A stretch of 49,015 bases of DNA from a virus: IMG/VR virus record IMGVR_UViG_3300030419_004017, positions 1-49,015 of that record. One strand, given 5' to 3'. The first letter of the stretch is position 1. Every line of letters begins with the position of its first letter. Under the pieces are notes generated by a model. It saw nothing but the letters and a program-made list of their open reading frames with translations. It made no database searches and had not been told where the DNA came from. Made by a program: the position numbers and the translations under genes. This document shows, piece after piece, positions 5,689-44,068 of the stretch.

Positions 5689-6024
5689 ATGGCATTAGTA
5701 GACTTAGTCAAAGGAAAAGACACACCTACACCAAATAAAGGTGCAACAGGTAACATACCAACAGATTCACCACAAGGTGCGGGAGAAAACTTTGTTCCCT
5801 ACTCTTCAAGAATAATAGATGGGGCAAAAGATGTAAACCCAATGGGAAGTCCAAGAGGTAGACATTTAGATAATGGTCGTGATGTATTACCACAAGGAAG
5901 TCCAATAGGTAGACATATTAATAGTGGAAACACTATATTACCACAAGGTAGTCCACAAGGAAGACACACCCAATCCCCACTTGGTGTTGGAACAATTCGA
6001 AAATCACCACTCGCGGGAGAATAA
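5689..6024 (+). CDS. Gly/Pro-rich protein with three 17-residue repeats
   Basis: The 111-residue protein is low-complexity and contains three near-perfect 17-residue repeats at about 50-66, 67-83 and 84-100. Their core is PxGSPxGRHxxxGxxx (PMGSPRGRH, PQGSPIGRH, PQGSPQGRH). Further SPQG/SPLG motifs flank them. It has no hydrophobic core and is probably extended. TAGGAGTAAGAG is the ribosome site. It could be a virion-associated or host-surface-binding element. No family is recognised. Confidence 0.7.
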   Translation: MALVDLVKGKDTPTPNKGATGNIPTDSPQGAGENFVPYSSRIIDGAKDVNPMGSPRGRHLDNGRDVLPQGSPIGRHINSGNTILPQGSPQGRHTQSPLGVGTIRKSPLAGE

Positions 6025-9482: not shown

Positions 9483-9589
9483 AGGGGGGGACTATATATA
9501 AAAAAACCCGTACTACATAATATAGGGTGATTTTGCACTATCATCGGAACAAAACCCGAAAATTATTTTAAAAAAAGTGAAAAAAACAC

Positions 9590-9619
9590 TTGACTTGTAT
9601 AGGTTTTTATGTGTAAATT
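9590..9619 (+). promoter_or_regulatory. Sigma70-like promoter 3
   Basis: TTGACT at 9590-9595, 18-bp spacer, TAAATT at 9614-9619, again followed by AGGGGGGG. It is nearly identical to promoter 2, including the upstream AAAAAGTGAAAAAA tract. Confidence 0.7.
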
Positions 9620-16830: not shown

Positions 16831-16903
16831 GGGGCTGTAGTTCAGTTGGGAGAACGCCTCCCTTGCACGGAGGAGGTCGCAGGTTCGAATCCTGTCAGCT
16901 CCA
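16831..16903 (+). tRNA. tRNA-Ala (anticodon TGC)
   Basis: A complete cloverleaf: acceptor GGGGCTG pairs with CAGCTCC (one G-T pair), D-arm GTTC/GAAC, anticodon stem CCTCC/GGAGG with loop CTTGCAC, and T-arm GCAGG-TTCGAAT-CCTGT. Discriminator A at 16903. CCA is not encoded. Confidence 0.97.
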
Positions 16904-16906
16904 CTA

Positions 16907-16995: not shown

Positions 16996-17066
16996 GTCGT
17001 GGTGTCCGAATGGTTAGGTCGCGGATTGCAAATCCGTTCATGTGAGTTCAAATCTCACCCACGACT
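16996..17066 (+). tRNA. tRNA-Cys (anticodon GCA)
   Basis: Acceptor GTCGTGG pairs with CCACGAC. The D-loop GAATGGTTAGGT, anticodon stem GCGGA/TCCGT with loop TTGCAAA, and T-arm TGAGT-TCAAATC-TCACC are all present. The discriminator is U, as expected for cysteine. CCA is not encoded. Confidence 0.95.
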
Positions 17067-17078
17067 CAAGGAGAATAG

Positions 17079-18939: not shown

Positions 18940-19920
18940 ATGAGATATGGTTATGCTTGTATTAGTATGAAATTATCGTACCCACAAAAATATGGTGGTA
19001 AGGAAAAAGGTATCAAACCAATTACAACTGGTAGGACAATGATTCGTAGAACATTCGACACTAAAGGTGTGGATTATGCTAGTGAATTGACTTTACAAAA
19101 TGTTAAGGATTTGAACCAAATAGTACAATGGAATGTATTGAATGGTTATGAATTTTACCGAATGAGTAGTGGATTGGCACCGTGGAAGACAGAGTATGAG
19201 TGGGAAGATTTGAAAGACTTAGATGAAATTAAAGCTTACTTTCGTTCCGTTGGTTGGGTAGCTGATACACACAATATAAGGTTGACTTCACATCCTGGCC
19301 CTTTCAATGTATTGGTATCACCTAAAGAAGATGTGGTTGAGAATTGTATTAAAGACTTGACTATACATGGTGATGAGTTTGATATGATAGGACTATCTCG
19401 AACACCATACAACAAGATTAATATTCACTTGGGTGGAGCTTACGGAGACAAGGAAGCTTCCATGAAACGCTTTGTTAAAAATTTCCCAAGATTACCTGAA
19501 AGTGTTAGTAGTAGATTGACACTTGAGAATGACGACAAGGCATCAATGTATTCAGTAAAGGATTTGTATTATGGAATTTACAAACAATGTGGTGTTCCTA
19601 TTGTTTTTGATTATCATCACCACCGATTTTGCGATGGTGGATTATCAGAGAAGGAAGCTCTCGAAATGGCTATCTCAACATGGCCCAAAGGTATTACACC
19701 AGTTGTCCACTATAGCGAAAGTCGGAGTAAGGAACGACTTGACGAATCAATTAGACCCCAAGCACATTCTGATTATGTTTACGACTATATTGATAATTAT
19801 GGTAATGATATTGATGTTATGATTGAAGCTAAACATAAGGAGTTAGCCGTTGACAAATACAAGTCAATTCATTTAGTAGACCATTATAATGATATACCAT
19901 CACCGAGGGCATACATTTGA
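18940..19920 (+). CDS. uvdE: UV damage endonuclease (UvdE/UVDE)
   Basis: The 326-residue TIM-barrel nuclease has family motifs in order: RLTSHPGPF, NIHLGGAYGDK, LTLENDD, PIVFDYHHHRF, VVHYSES, AHSDYVYDY and DVMIEAKHKELA. These supply the His/Asp/Glu metal ligands. UVDE nicks DNA 5' of UV photoproducts and abasic sites, starting alternative excision repair. In a surface-ocean phage this would repair sunlight damage independently of host UvrABC. The full length and intact motifs suggest an active enzyme. Confidence 0.92.
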   Translation: MRYGYACISMKLSYPQKYGGKEKGIKPITTGRTMIRRTFDTKGVDYASELTLQNVKDLNQIVQWNVLNGYEFYRMSSGLAPWKTEYEWEDLKDLDEIKAYFRSVGWVADTHNIRLTSHPGPFNVLVSPKEDVVENCIKDLTIHGDEFDMIGLSRTPYNKINIHLGGAYGDKEASMKRFVKNFPRLPESVSSRLTLENDDKASMYSVKDLYYGIYKQCGVPIVFDYHHHRFCDGGLSEKEALEMAISTWPKGITPVVHYSESRSKERLDESIRPQAHSDYVYDYIDNYGNDIDVMIEAKHKELAVDKYKSIHLVDHYNDIPSPRAYI

Positions 19921-24058: not shown

Positions 24059-24285
24059 TGAGAGATGATGTGGTGTACAATAAATGGGATAACCAAGTGA
24101 TGGTAAAGACTGCAGGAGACCTAATTTACATCGTATGTCATAAAGAAGAACAACAAGAAAAGGTAATTCAAAAGATGACAACCGATAATTGTTTGTTAGA
24201 GAGTTACGAGGTATGGGAAGATGAAAAGACAATCCTAACCTTTAGAGTTTTAGATAATTATGAAATAACACCTGAGTTAAACTAA
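24058..24285 (+). CDS. Hypothetical protein, 75 aa
   Basis: Overlaps both neighbours by one base (TAATG). It is a soluble alpha/beta protein; the pattern DLIYIVCHKEEQQEKVIQKM then a strand-rich end suggests a small ferredoxin-like fold. No family is recognised. Confidence 0.6.
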   Translation: MRDDVVYNKWDNQVMVKTAGDLIYIVCHKEEQQEKVIQKMTTDNCLLESYEVWEDEKTILTFRVLDNYEITPELN

Positions 24286-24689
24286 TGGATAAGTTAAAGA
24301 AAATAGATTTAAATATAATACCAAAGTGGTGGTCAATTGTAGTTTGGATATTGATTGGATTATTTGTTTTACTACAACCACTTAATGGTCAAATAGTAAA
24401 AGTATTACCCGAAATAGTACCATATAGATTGATTCCATCTGGTGATAATTTCTGTCATATGGAAATAGAAATAATAGAACCTCAAAGTTTTAGATATATG
24501 GTAGAAATACAAAAAGAAGAAACAATTGAGATACTGAAAGAAAGAGCAGCCCATGAGATGATACAATCACACGAAAAGGGAACTATCTTTAGTATTGATG
24601 GTAAAGATTATTTAATGTTCAGATTACCATTCGATGTAACATATTCTGAATGGTATGGACGAGATACAAAGTATGGAGAATACCGATGA
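24285..24689 (+). CDS. Membrane-anchored protein, 134 aa
   Basis: One hydrophobic N-terminal segment (WWSIVVWILIGLFVLLQPL) is followed by a polar domain with strands and a helix (KEETIEILKERAAHEMIQSH). It may be an uncleaved anchor or a signal sequence, since NGQ after the segment echoes the signal end of the 22569 protein. The stop overlaps the selenoprotein-like gene start as ATGA. Confidence 0.6.
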   Translation: MDKLKKIDLNIIPKWWSIVVWILIGLFVLLQPLNGQIVKVLPEIVPYRLIPSGDNFCHMEIEIIEPQSFRYMVEIQKEETIEILKERAAHEMIQSHEKGTIFSIDGKDYLMFRLPFDVTYSEWYGRDTKYGEYR

Positions 24690-24949
24690 AAATAGAAATA
24701 CATTATTGTACATCTTGAAATTATCAACCAAGAGCTCTCAGTTTGAGAGATGAATTAAAAAACCATTACGATGGTGTCTTTGATGAGTTTGAAATAAAAC
24801 TCGTTGAGGCTAGTGGTGGTGCCTTTGAGGTATATGTAAATGATTCTTTAAAGGTATTTAGTAAATTGAATGTAGGTAGGTTTCCTAATAGTACATTTGA
24901 GATTACAAAGACCATTGATGATTCAATACACGAGGGTCGACTCCGATAG
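24686..24949 (+). CDS. SelW/Rdx-family protein with in-frame UGA (candidate selenoprotein)
   Basis: From ATG 24686 the frame runs to TAG 24947-24949 with one TGA at 24716-24718 (codon 11). Read through as selenocysteine, the N-terminus is HYCTSU followed by NYQPRALSLRDEL. This is the CxxU redox motif of selenoprotein W/Rdx thioredoxin-like proteins, and the rest (GGAFEVYVNDSLKVFSK, then GRFPN) matches that family end to end. TGA is a normal stop elsewhere in the window, so this is not a recoded genome. A stem-loop begins 16 bases after the TGA. Alternatives are a broken gene with Cys TGT/TGC mutated to TGA, or translation from downstream only. Family role: thiol-redox protein. Confidence 0.8.
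24735..24749 (+). promoter_or_regulatory. Candidate bacterial SECIS hairpin
   Basis: CTCTCA at 24735-24740 pairs with TGAGAG at 24744-24749 around a GTT loop, 16 bases after the UGA ends. Bacterial SECIS elements lie just downstream of the UGA with a G/U-containing apical loop that SelB recognises. The position and loop fit, but the stem is short and I cannot score it. Confidence 0.5.
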
Positions 24950-25038
24950 TATATACTATTTCCGTCCCAAAGGGTACTTATTAGTAATAATATATAGTAA
25001 AAAAATAAAAAATAAATCAATAAAAATTAAAAAAAGCC

Positions 25039-25068
25039 TTGACTCGTATAGTATTTCTTTAGTATATT
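25039..25068 (+). promoter_or_regulatory. Sigma70-like promoter for the CobT-like gene
   Basis: TTGACT at 25039-25044, 18-bp spacer, TATATT at 25063-25068 plus C, with an upstream A-tract. A 14-bp palindrome (ATAGTATATACTAT, 24946-24959) lies upstream, overlapping the previous stop codon. Confidence 0.8.
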
Positions 25069-25091
25069 CTTATATGAGAAACAGAGGAAAT

Positions 25092-27221
25092 ATGAAAAAC
25101 TTAAAACACTTTAATACTTCACGGAGTTCAATTTCTAACTCCAATAATTATTCGTCTTTTTGGATGGACAATGAATTTGATTTTGATAGGAAAACTTCTA
25201 TCTTTGATGATGAGGAAGTTGTAAAACCAAAAACAGACTTAATCGCTCTTAGTTCTTACAGAAGAGCAATCGGTAACTTTGTTCGTATCGTTACTCAAAA
25301 AGATATTCCTGTTACATTTAAATCAAGTGGTGATTCTTACACCGATGGTAAAAAAGTTGTTATCTCCGCTAAGATGGATGATAAGTCTTTTGACCCGTCT
25401 GTTGGATTAGCACTTCACGAAGGTTCACACATTGTTCTTTCAGATTTCGATTGGTTAAGAGACCTTGAAAACAACACTCCACAAGAGTTATTCCACATTG
25501 GTGAGTCTAAAGGTTATTCAAGACAAGATGTATTAGGTTATGTAAAAAACTTACTCAACTATGTTGAGGATAGAAGAATTGATAATTATATCTTCACTTC
25601 CTCTCCGGGTTACAAGGGTTATTATCACTCTATGTATGACAAGTACTTTCACTCAAAAGTAATTGATAAAGCACTTGGTACTGATGAGTACACCGAAGAA
25701 AATATGGATTCTTATATGTTCCGTATTATCAACCTTACTAACAAGAATACTAATCTTTCAGCACTTAAAGGTCTTCGTAAAATTTGGACTACTATTGACC
25801 TTAAGAATATTTCAAGACTAACAAGTACTGGTCATTCGTTTGAAGTCGCTTGTGAAGTTCTCCACATTATCTTTTCTAATCTACCTGACGCAGAAGTCAA
25901 GGTTGATGAAGAAGGTAATGAATCATATGAACCAGCAAAAGATAGTGGTAGTGGAATGGATAGTTCTACTGGTGGTGAGTCTTCTGATGAACCAATTTCT
26001 GATGAGGATTTCCAAGACCTATTGGATTCACTTGAAAGTGGAGAGATGAAGAGTCAACCTAAAGAAGAAGAAAAAGTTGAGGATACAAAACCTGTTGAAT
26101 CAAAAGATAAGAATTTACTTTCTGATTCTCAGAAGAAACAACTTGAAAACGCTATCAAGAAACAAAAAGATTTCATGAATGGTAAAACTTCTAAGAAGAA
26201 TGTTACCAAGAAAGAACTAAAGGATTTAGAAACAATCGAATCAAGTGGTATGAGTTATGTTGAAGTTGGTGATGGACTTACAACTTGGGATGGTAAGAAA
26301 CAAAGTACCAAGTGTATTGTTGTTCGTGAGTTTACAAAATCACTTATAGATAGTGGTACTGTTTCCATGATAAGTAAATGGAAAGGTGAAAGGTATGGTA
26401 CTGATAATGATTATCGTGAAGAAAGTTACATTGAAGATGGTATCAGACTTGGAACTATCTTAGGTCGTAAACTACAAGTTCGTGGTGAGTCTCGTGAAAC
26501 CAAGTGGACTCGTTTGGATAGTGGAAAGATTGACAAGAGATTAATTAGTGAGTTGGGTTTTGGTAACGATAGGGTTTTTTCTAATAGTTTTATTGAAGAG
26601 TATTCAGACGCTTTCCTTCACATCTCAGTTGACGCTAGTGGTTCTATGGGTGGTTCAAAGTGGTCTAACACAATGACTTCCGTAATCGCTATATGTAAAG
26701 CGATTGACATGGTAAACAATGTTGATGTGGTTGTGAGTTTCCGTACCACCCAAACAAATGGTAATGGTCGTAGAGGTGAAACAACTAAACCACTTATCTT
26801 AATCGCTTATGATTCTCGTAAAGATTCTTTTATCAAAGTAAAAAACTTGTTCAAGTATCTTGATGTCGCAGGTACTACACCTGAAGGATTATGTTACGAA
26901 GCGATAATGAATGAAATTGTACCAACTACGAATGACAGAGATTCTTACTTTCTAAACTTTTCCGATGGGATGCCGATGTTTGGTAACAACGAGGTCGATT
27001 ATCATGGTGATGTCGCACTTAGTCACACTCAGAAAATGGTTAAGGAAATTCGTAATCGTGGTATTAAAGTTTTGTCTTACTTTGTAAGTGATTCAAGTTG
27101 GAGTAGAGATAATGACTCAAGAGCTTTCAACAAAATGTATGGTAAAGACGCTGAGTATATTGATGTAACTTCTGTTCTGTCAGTATCCAAAACTATGAAC
27201 AAGAAATTCTTACAGAAGTAA
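25092..27221 (+). CDS. CobT-like VWA protein with HExxH motif, 709 aa
   Basis: GAGGAAAT marks ATG 25092; the expected transcription start lies near 25075. The N-terminal part has a zinc-protease-like HEGSH (109-113) in LALHEGSHIVLSDFDWL. A Glu/Lys/Ser-rich low-complexity linker spans about 275-370. A C-terminal von Willebrand A domain has the MIDAS DASGSMGGS near residue 512. Marine T4-like phages carry this gene with a CobS-like ATPase. The pair resembles cobaltochelatase or MoxR/VWA chaperone systems that remodel a target or insert metal. The real substrate is unknown. Confidence 0.85.
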   Translation: MKNLKHFNTSRSSISNSNNYSSFWMDNEFDFDRKTSIFDDEEVVKPKTDLIALSSYRRAIGNFVRIVTQKDIPVTFKSSGDSYTDGKKVVISAKMDDKSFDPSVGLALHEGSHIVLSDFDWLRDLENNTPQELFHIGESKGYSRQDVLGYVKNLLNYVEDRRIDNYIFTSSPGYKGYYHSMYDKYFHSKVIDKALGTDEYTEENMDSYMFRIINLTNKNTNLSALKGLRKIWTTIDLKNISRLTSTGHSFEVACEVLHIIFSNLPDAEVKVDEEGNESYEPAKDSGSGMDSSTGGESSDEPISDEDFQDLLDSLESGEMKSQPKEEEKVEDTKPVESKDKNLLSDSQKKQLENAIKKQKDFMNGKTSKKNVTKKELKDLETIESSGMSYVEVGDGLTTWDGKKQSTKCIVVREFTKSLIDSGTVSMISKWKGERYGTDNDYREESYIEDGIRLGTILGRKLQVRGESRETKWTRLDSGKIDKRLISELGFGNDRVFSNSFIEEYSDAFLHISVDASGSMGGSKWSNTMTSVIAICKAIDMVNNVDVVVSFRTTQTNGNGRRGETTKPLILIAYDSRKDSFIKVKNLFKYLDVAGTTPEGLCYEAIMNEIVPTTNDRDSYFLNFSDGMPMFGNNEVDYHGDVALSHTQKMVKEIRNRGIKVLSYFVSDSSWSRDNDSRAFNKMYGKDAEYIDVTSVLSVSKTMNKKFLQK

Positions 27222-27406: not shown

Positions 27407-27564
27407 TGAATAAGAAAATGAAAGCGTTAGACAAGGCATCTAAGGTAAATTTTAAATTTGAAAACATGGATAGTGAAACACAAGAAGCTATCAAGAGTTT
27501 AATAAATCATCTGATGGTAAAACGAGAAGAAAAAAAACTTAAGAAAAATGAAAAAAAGACTTGA
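27406..27564 (+). CDS. Small Lys-rich protein, 52 aa
   Basis: ATG overlaps the previous TAA. The protein is helical (SETQEAIKSLINHLMVKREE) and ends in a Lys-rich tail. Its stop TGA lies inside the -35 box of the next promoter. Function unknown. Confidence 0.5.
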   Translation: MNKKMKALDKASKVNFKFENMDSETQEAIKSLINHLMVKREEKKLKKNEKKT

Positions 27565-27590
27565 CTCGTATAGGTTTTTAGTGGTATATT
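27561..27590 (+). promoter_or_regulatory. Sigma70-like promoter for the CobS-like gene
   Basis: TTGACT at 27561-27566, 18-bp spacer, TATATT at 27585-27590 plus C. The leader to ATG 27648 is about 50 bases and includes repeated ACTAACAA words. Confidence 0.8.
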
Positions 27591-27647
27591 CGTATATGAA
27601 TAATGAGAGAATAACTAACAAATAACTAACTAATAAGGGTTTTAAAT

Positions 27648-31605: not shown

Positions 31606-31642
31606 TTTGAATGTTTTTCTCTTATCGTTATGGGAGAAAAAA

Positions 31643-32092
31643 ATGGCAAAAAAACCTGCGTCGTTTGAATATAACGGCACATTAGTTAGAGTTTTAGATG
31701 GGGATACAATAGATTGTTATATTGATTTGGGTTTCGATTTAAAAATTAAAAAGAGAATTCGGTACATGGGTATCGATACTTGGGAATCAAGAACAAGAGA
31801 TTTAGCTGAAAAAGAAAAAGGTTTAGCAGCTAAAGCTCGTAACAAAGAGTTATTAGAGGCTGGTACTTTCAAAATTGTTTCACATGGAACTGGTAAGTTC
31901 GGTAGAGTATTGGGTGAAGTTTTTGTTGAAACAGAAAATGGTTTAGAAAGTGTAAATCAAATTTTAATCAATGAAGGTCACGCTTATGAATACGATGGTG
32001 GTAAGAAAAAGAAATTCATAGCTGAAATCAAGGAAGAAAAAGATGCTAAGAAAAAAGACTTGGTTGATAAACCAGCAGAGGAGAACTCGTAA
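31643..32092 (+). CDS. Thermonuclease (SNase)-like protein, 149 aa
   Basis: GGGAGAAAAAA fixes ATG 31643. The OB-fold nuclease is recognisable by LVRVLDGDTIDCYIDLGFDL, RIRYMGIDTWESR (with the catalytic Arg and Glu) and GKFGRVLGEVFV (second catalytic Arg). A Lys/Glu-rich C-terminal tail of about 25 residues follows. There is no signal peptide, so it would act inside the cell on DNA or RNA, for example in host genome degradation. Confidence 0.85.
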   Translation: MAKKPASFEYNGTLVRVLDGDTIDCYIDLGFDLKIKKRIRYMGIDTWESRTRDLAEKEKGLAAKARNKELLEAGTFKIVSHGTGKFGRVLGEVFVETENGLESVNQILINEGHAYEYDGGKKKKFIAEIKEEKDAKKKDLVDKPAEENS

Positions 32093-32490: not shown

Positions 32491-32964
32491 ATGACTAAAG
32501 TAGTTTTACGCAACCCATTCCCTATAATCGATAGGGATGAATTCTTAACACCATTTGATAGAATGTTTGATAAAATCGTGGAGAGTAATTTTCCTGATAT
32601 TACCAAATCCGTTGGTGTTAAACCATTTCAAGGAACAGCTTATCCAAAGGTAAATGTCTATGAGTACGATGATAAAGTCGGTGTAGTAGCAGAGATACCT
32701 GGTTTGGATAAAAAAGACTTATCAGTAGAAGTCGAGGATGGTGTACTAACTATCTCAGGCGACAAACATGGTTTGTTTGATGATGAGGGAGCAAAGGTTA
32801 TTCGTAGGGAATTGAAACATTCATCATTCAAGCGTTCATTCGAGTTAGGTGAACTATTGGATGGAGATAATATTAAAGCATCTTTCAAGGATGGTTTATT
32901 ATCGATTGATATTCCAAAGGCTGAACCTGAACTTCCAAAGAAGACTTCGGTAAAAATCTCATAA
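32491..32964 (+). CDS. Small heat-shock protein Hsp20
   Basis: The 157 residues contain a full alpha-crystallin domain (about 48-145): YPKVNVYEYDDKVGVVAEIP, GLDKKDLSVEVEDGVLTI, KHSSFKRSFELGE and FKDGLLSIDIPK, plus a short C-terminal tail with a VKIS end. The N-terminal arm is typical. It is an ATP-independent holdase and a core gene of marine T4-like phages, thought to aid virion protein folding. TAGGAGAAATAAA is the ribosome site. A structured leader precedes it. Confidence 0.93.
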   Translation: MTKVVLRNPFPIIDRDEFLTPFDRMFDKIVESNFPDITKSVGVKPFQGTAYPKVNVYEYDDKVGVVAEIPGLDKKDLSVEVEDGVLTISGDKHGLFDDEGAKVIRRELKHSSFKRSFELGELLDGDNIKASFKDGLLSIDIPKAEPELPKKTSVKIS

Positions 32965-34442: not shown

Positions 34443-35438
34443 GTGGAAACTAAGAATAGTAGGTTATTTCCATATTTAGTTGGACTTGCGGCTTTTTTAG
34501 TTGCTGGTTCGGCAGCGTTTTACTCAGTATTTGGTTTATCAAAACTCTTTAGTGGAGCAGCTTTAGCAGTAGTAATTATGGCTGGTTCACTTGAGTTTGC
34601 CAAGTTGGTAACAGCATCGTTCCTATACAGATATTGGGACGAAATAAATAAGATAATGAAAACTTATCTTGTGGTGGGTGTGGTTACACTCGTGGTGATA
34701 ACGAGTGCAGGTATCTTTGGTTTTCTATCAAATGCTTATCAAGGAGCTACAGCATCTTTTGAAAAGGAATCAACCGCACTATTGTATAAACAAGATAGGT
34801 TAGATCAATTACAAGAGGATAAAAAATTCCTAAAAGAAGAATTGGATGCAGCAGTATCGGAACTACCTGATAATTACCGAACTGCTAAAAGAAAACTCAG
34901 AGAGGAATACCAACCAAAGATTAATGATATCAACACTACAATGATGAACCTAAAACAAGAGATTGGTGATTTGAAGATAGCACTTGTTGAGACAGGTGTT
35001 GATGTCGGCCCAGCTATATTCTTGGCAAGAATATTCGATACTGAGGTTGATACAGTGGTTAAGTATTTCATTTTCATGTTGATAGCTGTATTTGACCCAC
35101 TTGCTGTAGTTTTGGTTATCTCGTATAACCTCACACTACAAGTTAGGATGAGAGATGAGGAAGCTAGCCCTGATGAAAAACAGAAATCAGAAAAGTTTGT
35201 AAGAAAAAAATCACCAAAGAGACTTGGATTATACAAAGAAGGTAAGTCTGTATTAGAAAAGGTGGTTAAAGAAACTTTTAAACCTGATAGGAAAAAGGTA
35301 AAAAAGTCTGAAAAGGTTATAGAACCAGAAGTTGAAGATACACCAAAGATTGAAGAAGAACCTGGTGGTGGAGTTTTTGAGGCAGAAGAAAAACCACAAA
35401 AAACTTTTGGAAGAGGAGCAGTAGTACATAATAAATGA
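34443..35438 (+). CDS. Large membrane protein with cytoplasmic coiled coil, 331 aa
   Basis: It starts at GTG 34443 behind ACGGAGAAAAA. Three or four membrane segments are visible: FPYLVGLAAFLVAGSAAFYS, ALAVVIMAGSLEFAKLV, YLVVGVVTLVVITSAGIFGF and, after a coiled coil of about 90 residues, YFIFMLIAVFDPLAVVLVIS. The C-terminal 90 residues are Lys/Glu-rich and disordered. Similar proteins occur in marine myoviruses without assigned function. It heads a run of membrane genes up to 36500. Confidence 0.75.
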   Translation: METKNSRLFPYLVGLAAFLVAGSAAFYSVFGLSKLFSGAALAVVIMAGSLEFAKLVTASFLYRYWDEINKIMKTYLVVGVVTLVVITSAGIFGFLSNAYQGATASFEKESTALLYKQDRLDQLQEDKKFLKEELDAAVSELPDNYRTAKRKLREEYQPKINDINTTMMNLKQEIGDLKIALVETGVDVGPAIFLARIFDTEVDTVVKYFIFMLIAVFDPLAVVLVISYNLTLQVRMRDEEASPDEKQKSEKFVRKKSPKRLGLYKEGKSVLEKVVKETFKPDRKKVKKSEKVIEPEVEDTPKIEEEPGGGVFEAEEKPQKTFGRGAVVHNK

Positions 35439-41459: not shown

Positions 41460-41567
41460 ATGTACAATATATTTTTACTAATACTTATGTTACAGATGAC
41501 CTCATGTAATGTTCAACAAGAAGAAATTGAATACATTGATGATGTGGACATGGAGTGTTATGCGTAA
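41460..41567 (+). CDS. Small lipoprotein, 35 aa
   Basis: ATG 41460 follows the previous stop directly. A hydrophobic signal ([15 protein letters not shown]) ends in a lipobox-like MTSC (Cys16), followed by only about 19 acidic residues. Such size recalls outer spanins or small phage lipoproteins. It overlaps the deformylase gene by eight bases. Confidence 0.55.
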
Positions 41568-42150
41568 AGTAATTGATTGTACAAAACATAGTAATGATTT
41601 AATTAATAAAAAACTAAAAGAGGTTTCCGTTGAAGAAGGAAGAATTATTGCCACAGAACTATTTCAGATACTTAACAAAAGAGGGGACGGTATTGGGTTG
41701 GCAGCGAATCAAGTGGGAATTGATGCACAAGTGGCCGTTGTCAATGTTCGTGAACCTTTGGTTCTCATTAACCCAAAAATCAAAGACCAATGGGATGAAA
41801 TAGATTATTACGAAGGCTGTTTAAGTTATCCAAAGAGAGGTTTACACACAAAAAGATACAAGAATATAATTATTAAAACAGAACAAGAAGAAAGTGAATG
41901 GTATTTTAGTGGAGTAGAAACTGATAAAGAAGGTAAAGGTAGTTGGGAAAAGGAACAATCGGATAAACAAGACCAAGAACAAAGATTGCTAGAGGCTATA
42001 TGTATTCAACACGAAATAGACCATTTGATGGGCAATACTATTCACGATAGAGAGAATAAACCAAAACCAATAGTGACAAAAAAATCAATTGGTCGTAACG
42101 AACCTTGTTATTGTGGTAGTGGTAAAAAATACAAAAGGTGTTGCTTATGA
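41560..42150 (+). CDS. def: Peptide deformylase with C-terminal SEC-C zinc motif
   Basis: ATG 41560 (196 aa) overlaps the lipoprotein stop. All three deformylase motifs are intact: [10 protein letters not shown] (44-53), EGCLSYP with Cys87, and HEIDH (151-155) for metal and catalysis. It removes the formyl group from nascent N-termini. A short SEC-C motif ([19 protein letters not shown], 177-195) is fused at the C-terminus. SEC-C zinc motifs occur in SecA and bind SecB or ribosomes, so it may tether the enzyme to ribosomes. An acidic/Lys-rich insert occupies about 107-140. Confidence 0.92.
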
Positions 42151-42874: not shown

Positions 42875-44068
42875 TTGAGAAAATATTTAACATACGATGA
42901 TGTAAATATCATCCCAAAATACTCAGAGGTCAAGTCTCGTGAAGATATCGACCTTTCCACGAGGTTTACAAAAAACACAACAATGAGTATGCCGATAGTA
43001 TCCTCACCAATGGACACGGTCACAGAATATAAGATGGCATCTGAAATGTTAGATAGAGGTGGTGTTGGTGTCATACATAGATTTCAGAGTATTGAAAAAC
43101 AATCCGAACAGATGAAAAGAGTTTGGAAACAATGGGATAGTTGGTACAATATAGGTAATCCTAATAAGGATAGAACAGACCACAACAGAATATTTGACGA
43201 ATGGTACAAAAATATAAGACATTGGAACTCACCACCAACTAAAACTGATTACGAAGATTTACACGAACTACTTTGGTTTGCGGATGAAGCTGAAAAAGAT
43301 GAAAAGTATTGGAGTAAAAGACCTTTGTGTGCGGCAGTTGGTGTTAAGGGTGATTATTTAGAAAGAGCAGAAGAATTGGTTTTAAATGGTTGTAATGTAC
43401 TACTTATTGATGTAGCCCACGGCCATCATAAGAATGTAGGAGAAGCGATTGAGAAAATCAAAAGTAGAATATCAAATATCGAAGTTGTCGCAGGAAACAT
43501 CGCGACAAGAGATGGAGCAACTTTTTTATGCGAGAAAGGGGCTGATGCCATCAGAGTGGGAATCGGAAACGGAAGTTTATGTGAAACAAGAATCAGGACT
43601 GGTGTTGGATTACCTCAGGTTACTACTCTTATTGATGTCTGTTCCGTTGCTGACGATTGGGATATTCCTGTCATTGCTGATGGTGGTGTTCGGAATGTGG
43701 GTGATGTGGTTAAAGGACTTGGTTGCGGAGCTGACACCATCATGGTTGGTTCGTTACTCTCAGGTACCAAAGAAAGTCCGGGTCAGATAGAGAAACAAGG
43801 AGAATGGCCTAACGAAAAGTTATTTAAAAAGTATAGGGGTTCCGCCTCAAGGGACTCAAAAGGAAATGATAAGAATGTTGAAGGGAATCATAAAGTTGTA
43901 CCGTATAAAGGGAAAGTCCATAGATTATTACACGATATTAAAGATGGAATTTCTAGCAGCTTCAGTTATGTTGGTGCTAACAATTTATCTGAGTTTCATA
44001 GTAAAGTAGAATTTGTTGAAGTAACACAAGCTGGTCAAAAAGAGGCAAGACCACACTTGTTAAATTAG
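42875..44068 (+). CDS. IMP dehydrogenase/GMP reductase-like protein without CBS domains
   Basis: TTG 42875 behind AGGAATGGC starts a 397-residue TIM-barrel enzyme. LTYDDVNIIP and SSPMDTVTE mark the N-terminus. GNGSLCETRIRTGVG holds catalytic Cys236. IADGGVRNVGDVVKGLGCGA and RGSASRDSKG follow as in GuaB. The tandem CBS domains are replaced by a different, Trp-rich insert of about 65 residues (86-150). It would oxidise IMP to XMP, or reduce GMP, in purine metabolism. Which reaction it performs cannot be settled by eye. Confidence 0.88.
   Translation: MRKYLTYDDVNIIPKYSEVKSREDIDLSTRFTKNTTMSMPIVSSPMDTVTEYKMASEMLDRGGVGVIHRFQSIEKQSEQMKRVWKQWDSWYNIGNPNKDRTDHNRIFDEWYKNIRHWNSPPTKTDYEDLHELLWFADEAEKDEKYWSKRPLCAAVGVKGDYLERAEELVLNGCNVLLIDVAHGHHKNVGEAIEKIKSRISNIEVVAGNIATRDGATFLCEKGADAIRVGIGNGSLCETRIRTGVGLPQVTTLIDVCSVADDWDIPVIADGGVRNVGDVVKGLGCGADTIMVGSLLSGTKESPGQIEKQGEWPNEKLFKKYRGSASRDSKGNDKNVEGNHKVVPYKGKVHRLLHDIKDGISSSFSYVGANNLSEFHSKVEFVEVTQAGQKEARPHLLN

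Follow-up and report, generated by a model that had tools for sequence, protein, structure and literature searches.

SelW-like selenoproteins are found in bacteria such as Bacillaceae (for example Cytobacillus spongiae, L006, in which the gene lies beside selD) and Thermomicrobium roseum (L005), and belong to the Rdx family (PF10262/TIGR02174). In the marine GOS data they form the most abundant selenoprotein family, with 427 selenocysteine (Sec) forms against 56 cysteine (Cys) forms (PMC2398784). The papers on marine SelW-like proteins (Sargasso, PMC1088965; GOS, PMC2398784) make no mention of phages or viruses with regard to SelW, viral sequences were reported to be few or absent among the selenoprotein families of a later GOS study (PMC9402790), and the words 'phage' and 'virus' are absent from a 2026 review of the prokaryotic selenoproteome (PMC13188914). 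The viral selenoproteins known so far are a handful of animal-virus enzymes, including the poxvirus glutathione peroxidases of molluscum contagiosum and fowlpox (PMC8310308), and tRNA-Sec genes have been reported from huge wastewater phages with no selenoprotein gene shown (PMC10747093).

We analysed a stretch of viral DNA of 49,015 nucleotides (IMG/VR record IMGVR_UViG_3300030419_004017, positions 1 to 49,015), referred to here as the window. It carries a selW-like gene with an in-frame TGA, and we consider it very likely, with a probability of about 0.93, that the window derives from a tailed phage encoding a SelW selenoprotein that is read by the SelA/SelB/SelD of its host.

The selW-like gene and its phage setting

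The gene lies at 24686-24949 on the plus strand and is an 87-residue SelW/Rdx frame with a sole in-frame TGA at codon 11 (24716-24718), which we infer to be read as Sec. With TGA translated as U, the product is MKIEIHYCTSUNYQPRALSLRDELKNHYDGVFDEFEIKLVEASGGAFEVYVNDSLKVFSKLNVGRFPNSTFEITKTIDDSIHEGRLR, ahead of a TAG stop, and contains the motifs CTSU (residues 8-11) and GGAFEV (residues 44-49). The ATG is preceded, at a distance of 7 nt, by a GGAG ribosome-binding site (24675-24678, plus strand), and both the GGAG and its spacing are identical in a related phage contig of 82 kb (G001; its SelW locus is L001). An upstream gene of unknown function, taken from the list of open reading frames (24285-24689, plus strand) and without a Pfam match above its cut-off, ends in a TGA that overlaps the selW start (ATGA), an arrangement that possibly reflects coupled translation.

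The read-through protein matched Pfam Rdx PF10262 (E=1.2e-18, 67.5 bits, cut-off 22.6) and NCBIfam TIGR02174 CXXU_selWTH (6.9e-17, 61.5 bits, cut-off 34.2), and its motifs and predicted structure fit a thioredoxin-like fold. An AlphaFold model built from the phage sequences reached a pLDDT of 93.4, and its top PDB matches were all SelW-related. Among these, Cys-type Rdx proteins (2fa8, 2obk, 2p0g and 3dex) have the same fold as the phage model (TM-score 0.77-0.81, probability 1.00); they differ in having CxxC, for which no SECIS is needed, where the phage protein has CxxU. The frame and the family match are thus shown, these independent tests make true SelW/Rdx membership very likely, and redox activity is inferred.

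Downstream on the same strand lie the next gene, for a large conserved phage protein without a Pfam family (25092-27221), which served to find relatives, a MoxR-type AAA ATPase that defines the phage family (27648-28811; AAA_5, E=3.1e-17) and an SNase-like nuclease gene (31607-32092; PF00565, E=3.1e-10). In many relatives selW lies directly 3' of the SNase-like gene (L149, L153, L156, L159, L173 and others). An intergenic element is repeated at 9559-9619, 25004-25108 and 27530-27621 of the window and at several places in G001; it has a promoter-like core, TTGACT...TATATT, followed by GAGAAACAGAG, and is possibly a recurring phage promoter. Elsewhere the window encodes tRNA-Ala (16831-16904), tRNA-Cys (16996-17067) and a phage tmRNA (44818-45225; tag GDSQPSYAYAA), as well as a 111-aa protein (5689-6024) with tandem GSPxGRH-type repeats (LPQGSPIGRH, MGSPRGRH). 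It also has several host-like genes, namely those for UvdE endonuclease (18940-19920), Hsp20 (32491-32964), a peptide deformylase with a SEC-C motif (41509-42150) and GuaB/IMP dehydrogenase (42875-44068).

One alternative is that the contig is bacterial and the gene an ordinary bacterial SelW. In its favor, no structural genes are recognised in the window itself, and marine bacteria commonly have SelW (PMC2398784). Against it, most of the length of G001 can be aligned with genes of the window, and that contig has genes for a baseplate wedge protein and a phage protein of the SbcC type. A further member of the family, G023, whose MoxR is 72% identical to that of the window, has a tail sheath, a major head protein and a phage-type DNA polymerase, and other SelW loci adjoin UvsX, gp32 and DnaB-like genes. 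A search for the T4 gp23 family was uninformative, as no control matched. We regard the bacterial alternative as very unlikely and hold, with high confidence, that selW lies on a tailed-phage genome and is common to related phages; the gene recurs in the phage family of the window and in a few other T4-type phages. The annotated phages in INPHARED contained nothing that matched the protein or 23 kb of window DNA.

A second alternative is a reassigned code, in which UGA would specify a standard amino acid throughout the phage. Phages with recoded stops do exist. In the window, however, TGA is an ordinary stop: of 93 non-overlapping ORFs with 60 aa or more on the plus strand, 26 end in it (9 of the 31 with at least 150 aa), and no in-frame TGA was seen in the conserved genes examined, so that reassignment is all but excluded.

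Selection through the UGA codon and the conserved hairpin

The selW of L001, from a contig largely collinear with the window, is 84% identical and has TGA at the same codon. Over codons 12-87 the two genes differ at 42 nucleotides, 27 of them synonymous and 15 non-synonymous, giving a dN of 0.088, a dS of 1.07 and a dN/dS of about 0.08 downstream of the TGA, which denotes strong purifying selection. There is no ATG, GTG or TTG after the TGA in L001, and therefore ribosomes that initiate at a standard start codon can translate its downstream part only by reading through the TGA.

Relatives were collected from IMG/VR with the MoxR-type gene, and the best 80 of 185 viral stretches were kept. In a set chosen blind to SelW, which combined these MoxR-chosen loci with loci found through the 25092-27221 gene and was searched with the codon left unspecified, six contigs carried SelW (G001 and those of L115, L080, L082, L119 and L095); in each of the six a stop codon (TGA) occupies the Sec position, and Cys occurs in none. 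A PF10262 search of 74 phage records gave 25 matches, each with one TGA at the Sec position. A DNA pattern containing TGA returned 29 viral loci, all of them SelW genes that have the TGA, and the control pattern with TGY returned a single locus that was not SelW. This control was modelled on the Sec forms and would overlook Cys-type SelW of the usual kind, which has CxW; because of this bias, the claim that the phages have only Sec forms rests on the SelW-blind set and on the PF10262 searches, and a Fisher value subject to the same bias was left out of account.

In bacteria the picture depended on the group sampled. Matches were present in 80 of 399 Pseudomonadota genomes, 79 of them without a stop and one with TGA, and a stop occupied this codon in 49 of 51 bacterial loci dominated by Bacillaceae. 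An alignment of six sequences was too diverse as a collection query; one of three sequences worked and skewed the bacterial matches towards Bacillaceae, and because of that bias these matches are no host prediction. In a tree of 65 sequences the phage proteins formed one group (support 95/87) beside the Bacillaceae selenoproteins, a placement that is possible and no more than suggestive given 85 columns and limited bacterial sampling.

Could the TGA be a sequencing error, or the gene a pseudogene, with TGC or TGT misread or mutated in a gene that is in truth Cys-type or dead? The finding did come from a single contig. The same TGA, however, occupies this codon in about 30 viral contigs, whose proteins represent 22 distinct sequences, and the purifying selection after the TGA and the paired changes in the hairpin described below also speak against this explanation, which is all but excluded.

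The SECIS-type hairpin (24735-24749, plus strand) has a 6-bp stem, CTCTCA/TGAGAG, and a GTT loop with an A-U closing pair (N1-G-U-N-N2). It starts exactly 16 bases past the TGA (19 nt from its T), with the loop G 22 nt after the TGA. The published bSECIS geometry asks for a loop of 3-9 nt, a stem of 4-16 bp, a G within the first two loop bases and a distance of 16-37 nt from the UGA (PMC13188914), and the hairpin meets it with a 3-nt GUU loop, 6 bp, G first and 22 nt. Folding of the 46-50 bases from the TGA onwards gives this hairpin as the minimum-energy structure; its energy of -6.5 kcal/mol (40-50 nt from the UGA) misses the published cut-off of -7.5 (PMC13188914). In L001 a competing fold is slightly better (-7.3, against -5.8 for the hairpin). 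Of the 2143 TGAs of the window, 34 (1.6%) are followed by a Watson-Crick stem of 6 bp whose first two loop bases include G, and because of this chance level the hairpin alone is weak evidence; at the exact offset, a Watson-Crick stem of 6 bp, whatever its loop, follows only 1 of the 2143.

Among the relatives, all 21 distinct phage sequences have the stem at the same place, with a GUU loop (GGU once) and the A-U closing pair. Standard pairs make up 99.2% of their pair cells, double changes occur in three of the six pairs, and the window and L001 differ at two of the pairs, each by a compensatory change (U-A to G-C, C-G to U-A). The covariation score of these sequences was 0.325 against 0.190 when shuffled (0 of 500 as high), with no slid version close, and rose to 0.801 against 0.244 (0 of 500) with the Bacillaceae SelW-U genes added; RNAalifold independently gave the same six pairs. 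Selection through the UGA, the conserved UGA and the conserved hairpin are shown by these data, and we are confident that family match, selection and conservation across relatives together go far beyond chance.

There remains the possibility of a leaky or suppressed UGA, at which a near-cognate tRNA such as tRNA-Trp would insert a standard amino acid without selenium. It is favored by the absence of direct evidence for Sec and by the unverified Sec genes of the host. Against it, the UGA stands exactly at the Rdx redox Cys/Sec position, none of the relatives found has TGG, TAA or TAG in its place, the register and loop of the hairpin match those of Sec-SelW genes in Bacillaceae whose genomes carry tRNA-Sec, and a related phage carries tRNA-Sec itself. 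We judge it very unlikely.

These results bear out most of an earlier note on the window, made from the sequence alone. The frame, the TGA at codon 11, the CxxU motif and the hairpin at 24735-24749 were correct to the base, and the statement that TGA is not reassigned held. Independent tests, including a match of the 87 read-through residues to PF10262 and the folding of the hairpin, supported SelW/Rdx membership, Sec as the second redox residue, the SECIS type of the hairpin and the location on a phage. Of the three outcomes that the note had named as refuting it, Cys-type homologues in related phages and a sequencing error were not borne out, since the related phages found with the gene all keep the TGA and it recurs in about 30 different contigs; the third was a host without Sec genes, on which the tRNA-Sec gene of a phage of the same family has a bearing.

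tRNA-Sec and further candidate selenoprotein genes

The related phage G023 (IMGVR_UViG_3300030099_006395) carries a full tRNA-Sec gene with a UCA anticodon at 103633-103723 (L178:1501-1591), scoring 69.4 bits against a gathering score of 47. It also encodes a thioredoxin (L208:15279-15623; TGA at 35187) whose WCGPC site reads W-TGA-GPC and which, with read-through, matches Pfam Thioredoxin at 5.6e-22. Its hairpin, GTTTAGTA-GTG-TACTAGAC, has the loop G at offset 25, as in SelW, in a region where the two genes are unrelated. This WUGPC thioredoxin is likely a second phage selenoprotein family, with Sec insertion again inferred; the thioredoxins of further phages in the family have CGPC. A sequence resembling the repeated intergenic element of the window was also seen 3' of this gene.

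A third candidate is in G019, which has SelW-U together with a ResA/TlpA-like protein containing W-TGA-GPC (L217, minus strand, TGA near 1599; about 24100 in G019). Its hairpin, ATCGGA-GGC-TCCGAT, was identified by eye; its loop comes 5 nt earlier, and the minimum-energy fold predicted for the region is a different one.

A scan of the phage loci for UGA, hairpin and redox motif together returned SelW, the G023 thioredoxin and one match in the window (44108, minus strand), the last being an antisense chance match. Matches in the phage loci with UGA and hairpin and no redox motif yielded no further selenoprotein. Weak tRNA-Sec matches in several phages were identified by ARAGORN as tRNA-Tyr, Cys or Gly in those checked; some sub-threshold matches lay outside this check.

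Decoding, significance and comparison with known systems

In the mechanism we propose, the ribosome would start at the GGAG-preceded ATG at 24686 and meet the UGA at codon 11, where host SelB with Sec-tRNA-Sec, bound to the hairpin that lies 16 nt further on, would insert Sec without termination. The phage would borrow SelA, SelB and SelD from its host, and usually tRNA-Sec too. The predicted protein, a small oxidoreductase of thioredoxin fold with a Cys-x-x-Sec site, would probably serve as a redox aid while the phage infects its host, and analogy with SelW-like proteins suggests glutathione or thioredoxin as a possible partner. It is conjecture that the protein helps to keep redox balance or supports ribonucleotide reductase during infection; G023 has a gene for the ribonucleotide reductase large subunit, as does the SelW phage contig of L166 (B12-type by Pfam). 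That Sec is inserted, that SelA/SelB/SelD of the host are used and that the protein acts in redox chemistry are inferences made without any protein or selenium measurement and with the host unidentified.

The supply of SelA/B/C/D by the host, as the earlier note had proposed, likewise remains an inference, although G023 carries its own tRNA-Sec. Apart from that gene, no tRNA-Sec, SelB or SelD was found in the window or the relatives searched, all of which are partial records; SelB and SelD were absent from 17 phage records in a search that did not cover selA. Among bacteria, tRNA-Sec was present in all four Bacillaceae genomes with Sec-SelW that were checked and was not found in a Caulobacteraceae MAG with Cys-SelW, yet it was present in Cytobacillus eiseniae, which has a Cys-type copy. 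The ResA-like protein of G019 combines a dockerin domain with a sorting tail for type IX secretion (TIGR04183). This combination generally points to the Bacteroidota/Fibrobacterota/Marinimicrobia side, and we treat it only as a lead to the host.

The UGA-Sec codon and SECIS have been kept across wide divergence, even though Cys would remove the need for a Sec-decoding host, and therefore selection for selenium chemistry during infection appears to be strong. Viruses thus appear to contribute to microbial selenium proteins, and part of the marine SelW pool may, as a tentative inference, be viral. On a bolder reading, towards which we lean only slightly, a broad group of T4-type phages has a small viral selenoproteome (SelW, thioredoxin and ResA-like), with some members supplying their own tRNA-Sec, so that the marine SelW pool would be partly viral and host selenium metabolism would be used in infection. 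Three questions become testable: does Sec decoding limit the range of hosts that a phage can infect, do phages use the selenium of their hosts, and what share of ocean SelW is viral? The findings also expose a concrete annotation error, in that such genes are truncated or missed by standard gene callers. On the Thermomicrobium roseum plasmid (L005, 458-640) the public annotation is truncated: the Rdx it gives begins only past the Sec codon, and the true gene has its start further upstream and includes an in-frame TGA.

The bacterial SelW-like selenoproteins are among the closest known systems and share with the phage gene the CxxU motif, the UGA codon, the SECIS register and the predicted fold, and in Bacillaceae the AGUUU apex as well; most of these Bacillaceae proteins are 41-44% identical to the window protein. 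Unlike them, the phage gene adjoins phage genes, without selD, selA or selB. The poxvirus glutathione peroxidases resemble phage SelW in being virus-borne and host-decoded, but they belong to eukaryotic viruses, use a eukaryotic-type SECIS and represent another enzyme family. The huge wastewater phages have in common with G023 a phage-borne tRNA-Sec. The earlier description of the gene as rare for a phage needs to be changed, as it recurs in a phage family, yet we found no phage selenoprotein in the open-access literature searched. What is known, then, is the protein family and the decoding mechanism, and what is new is a phage lineage as the carrier, one that keeps Sec and has a member with its own tRNA-Sec.
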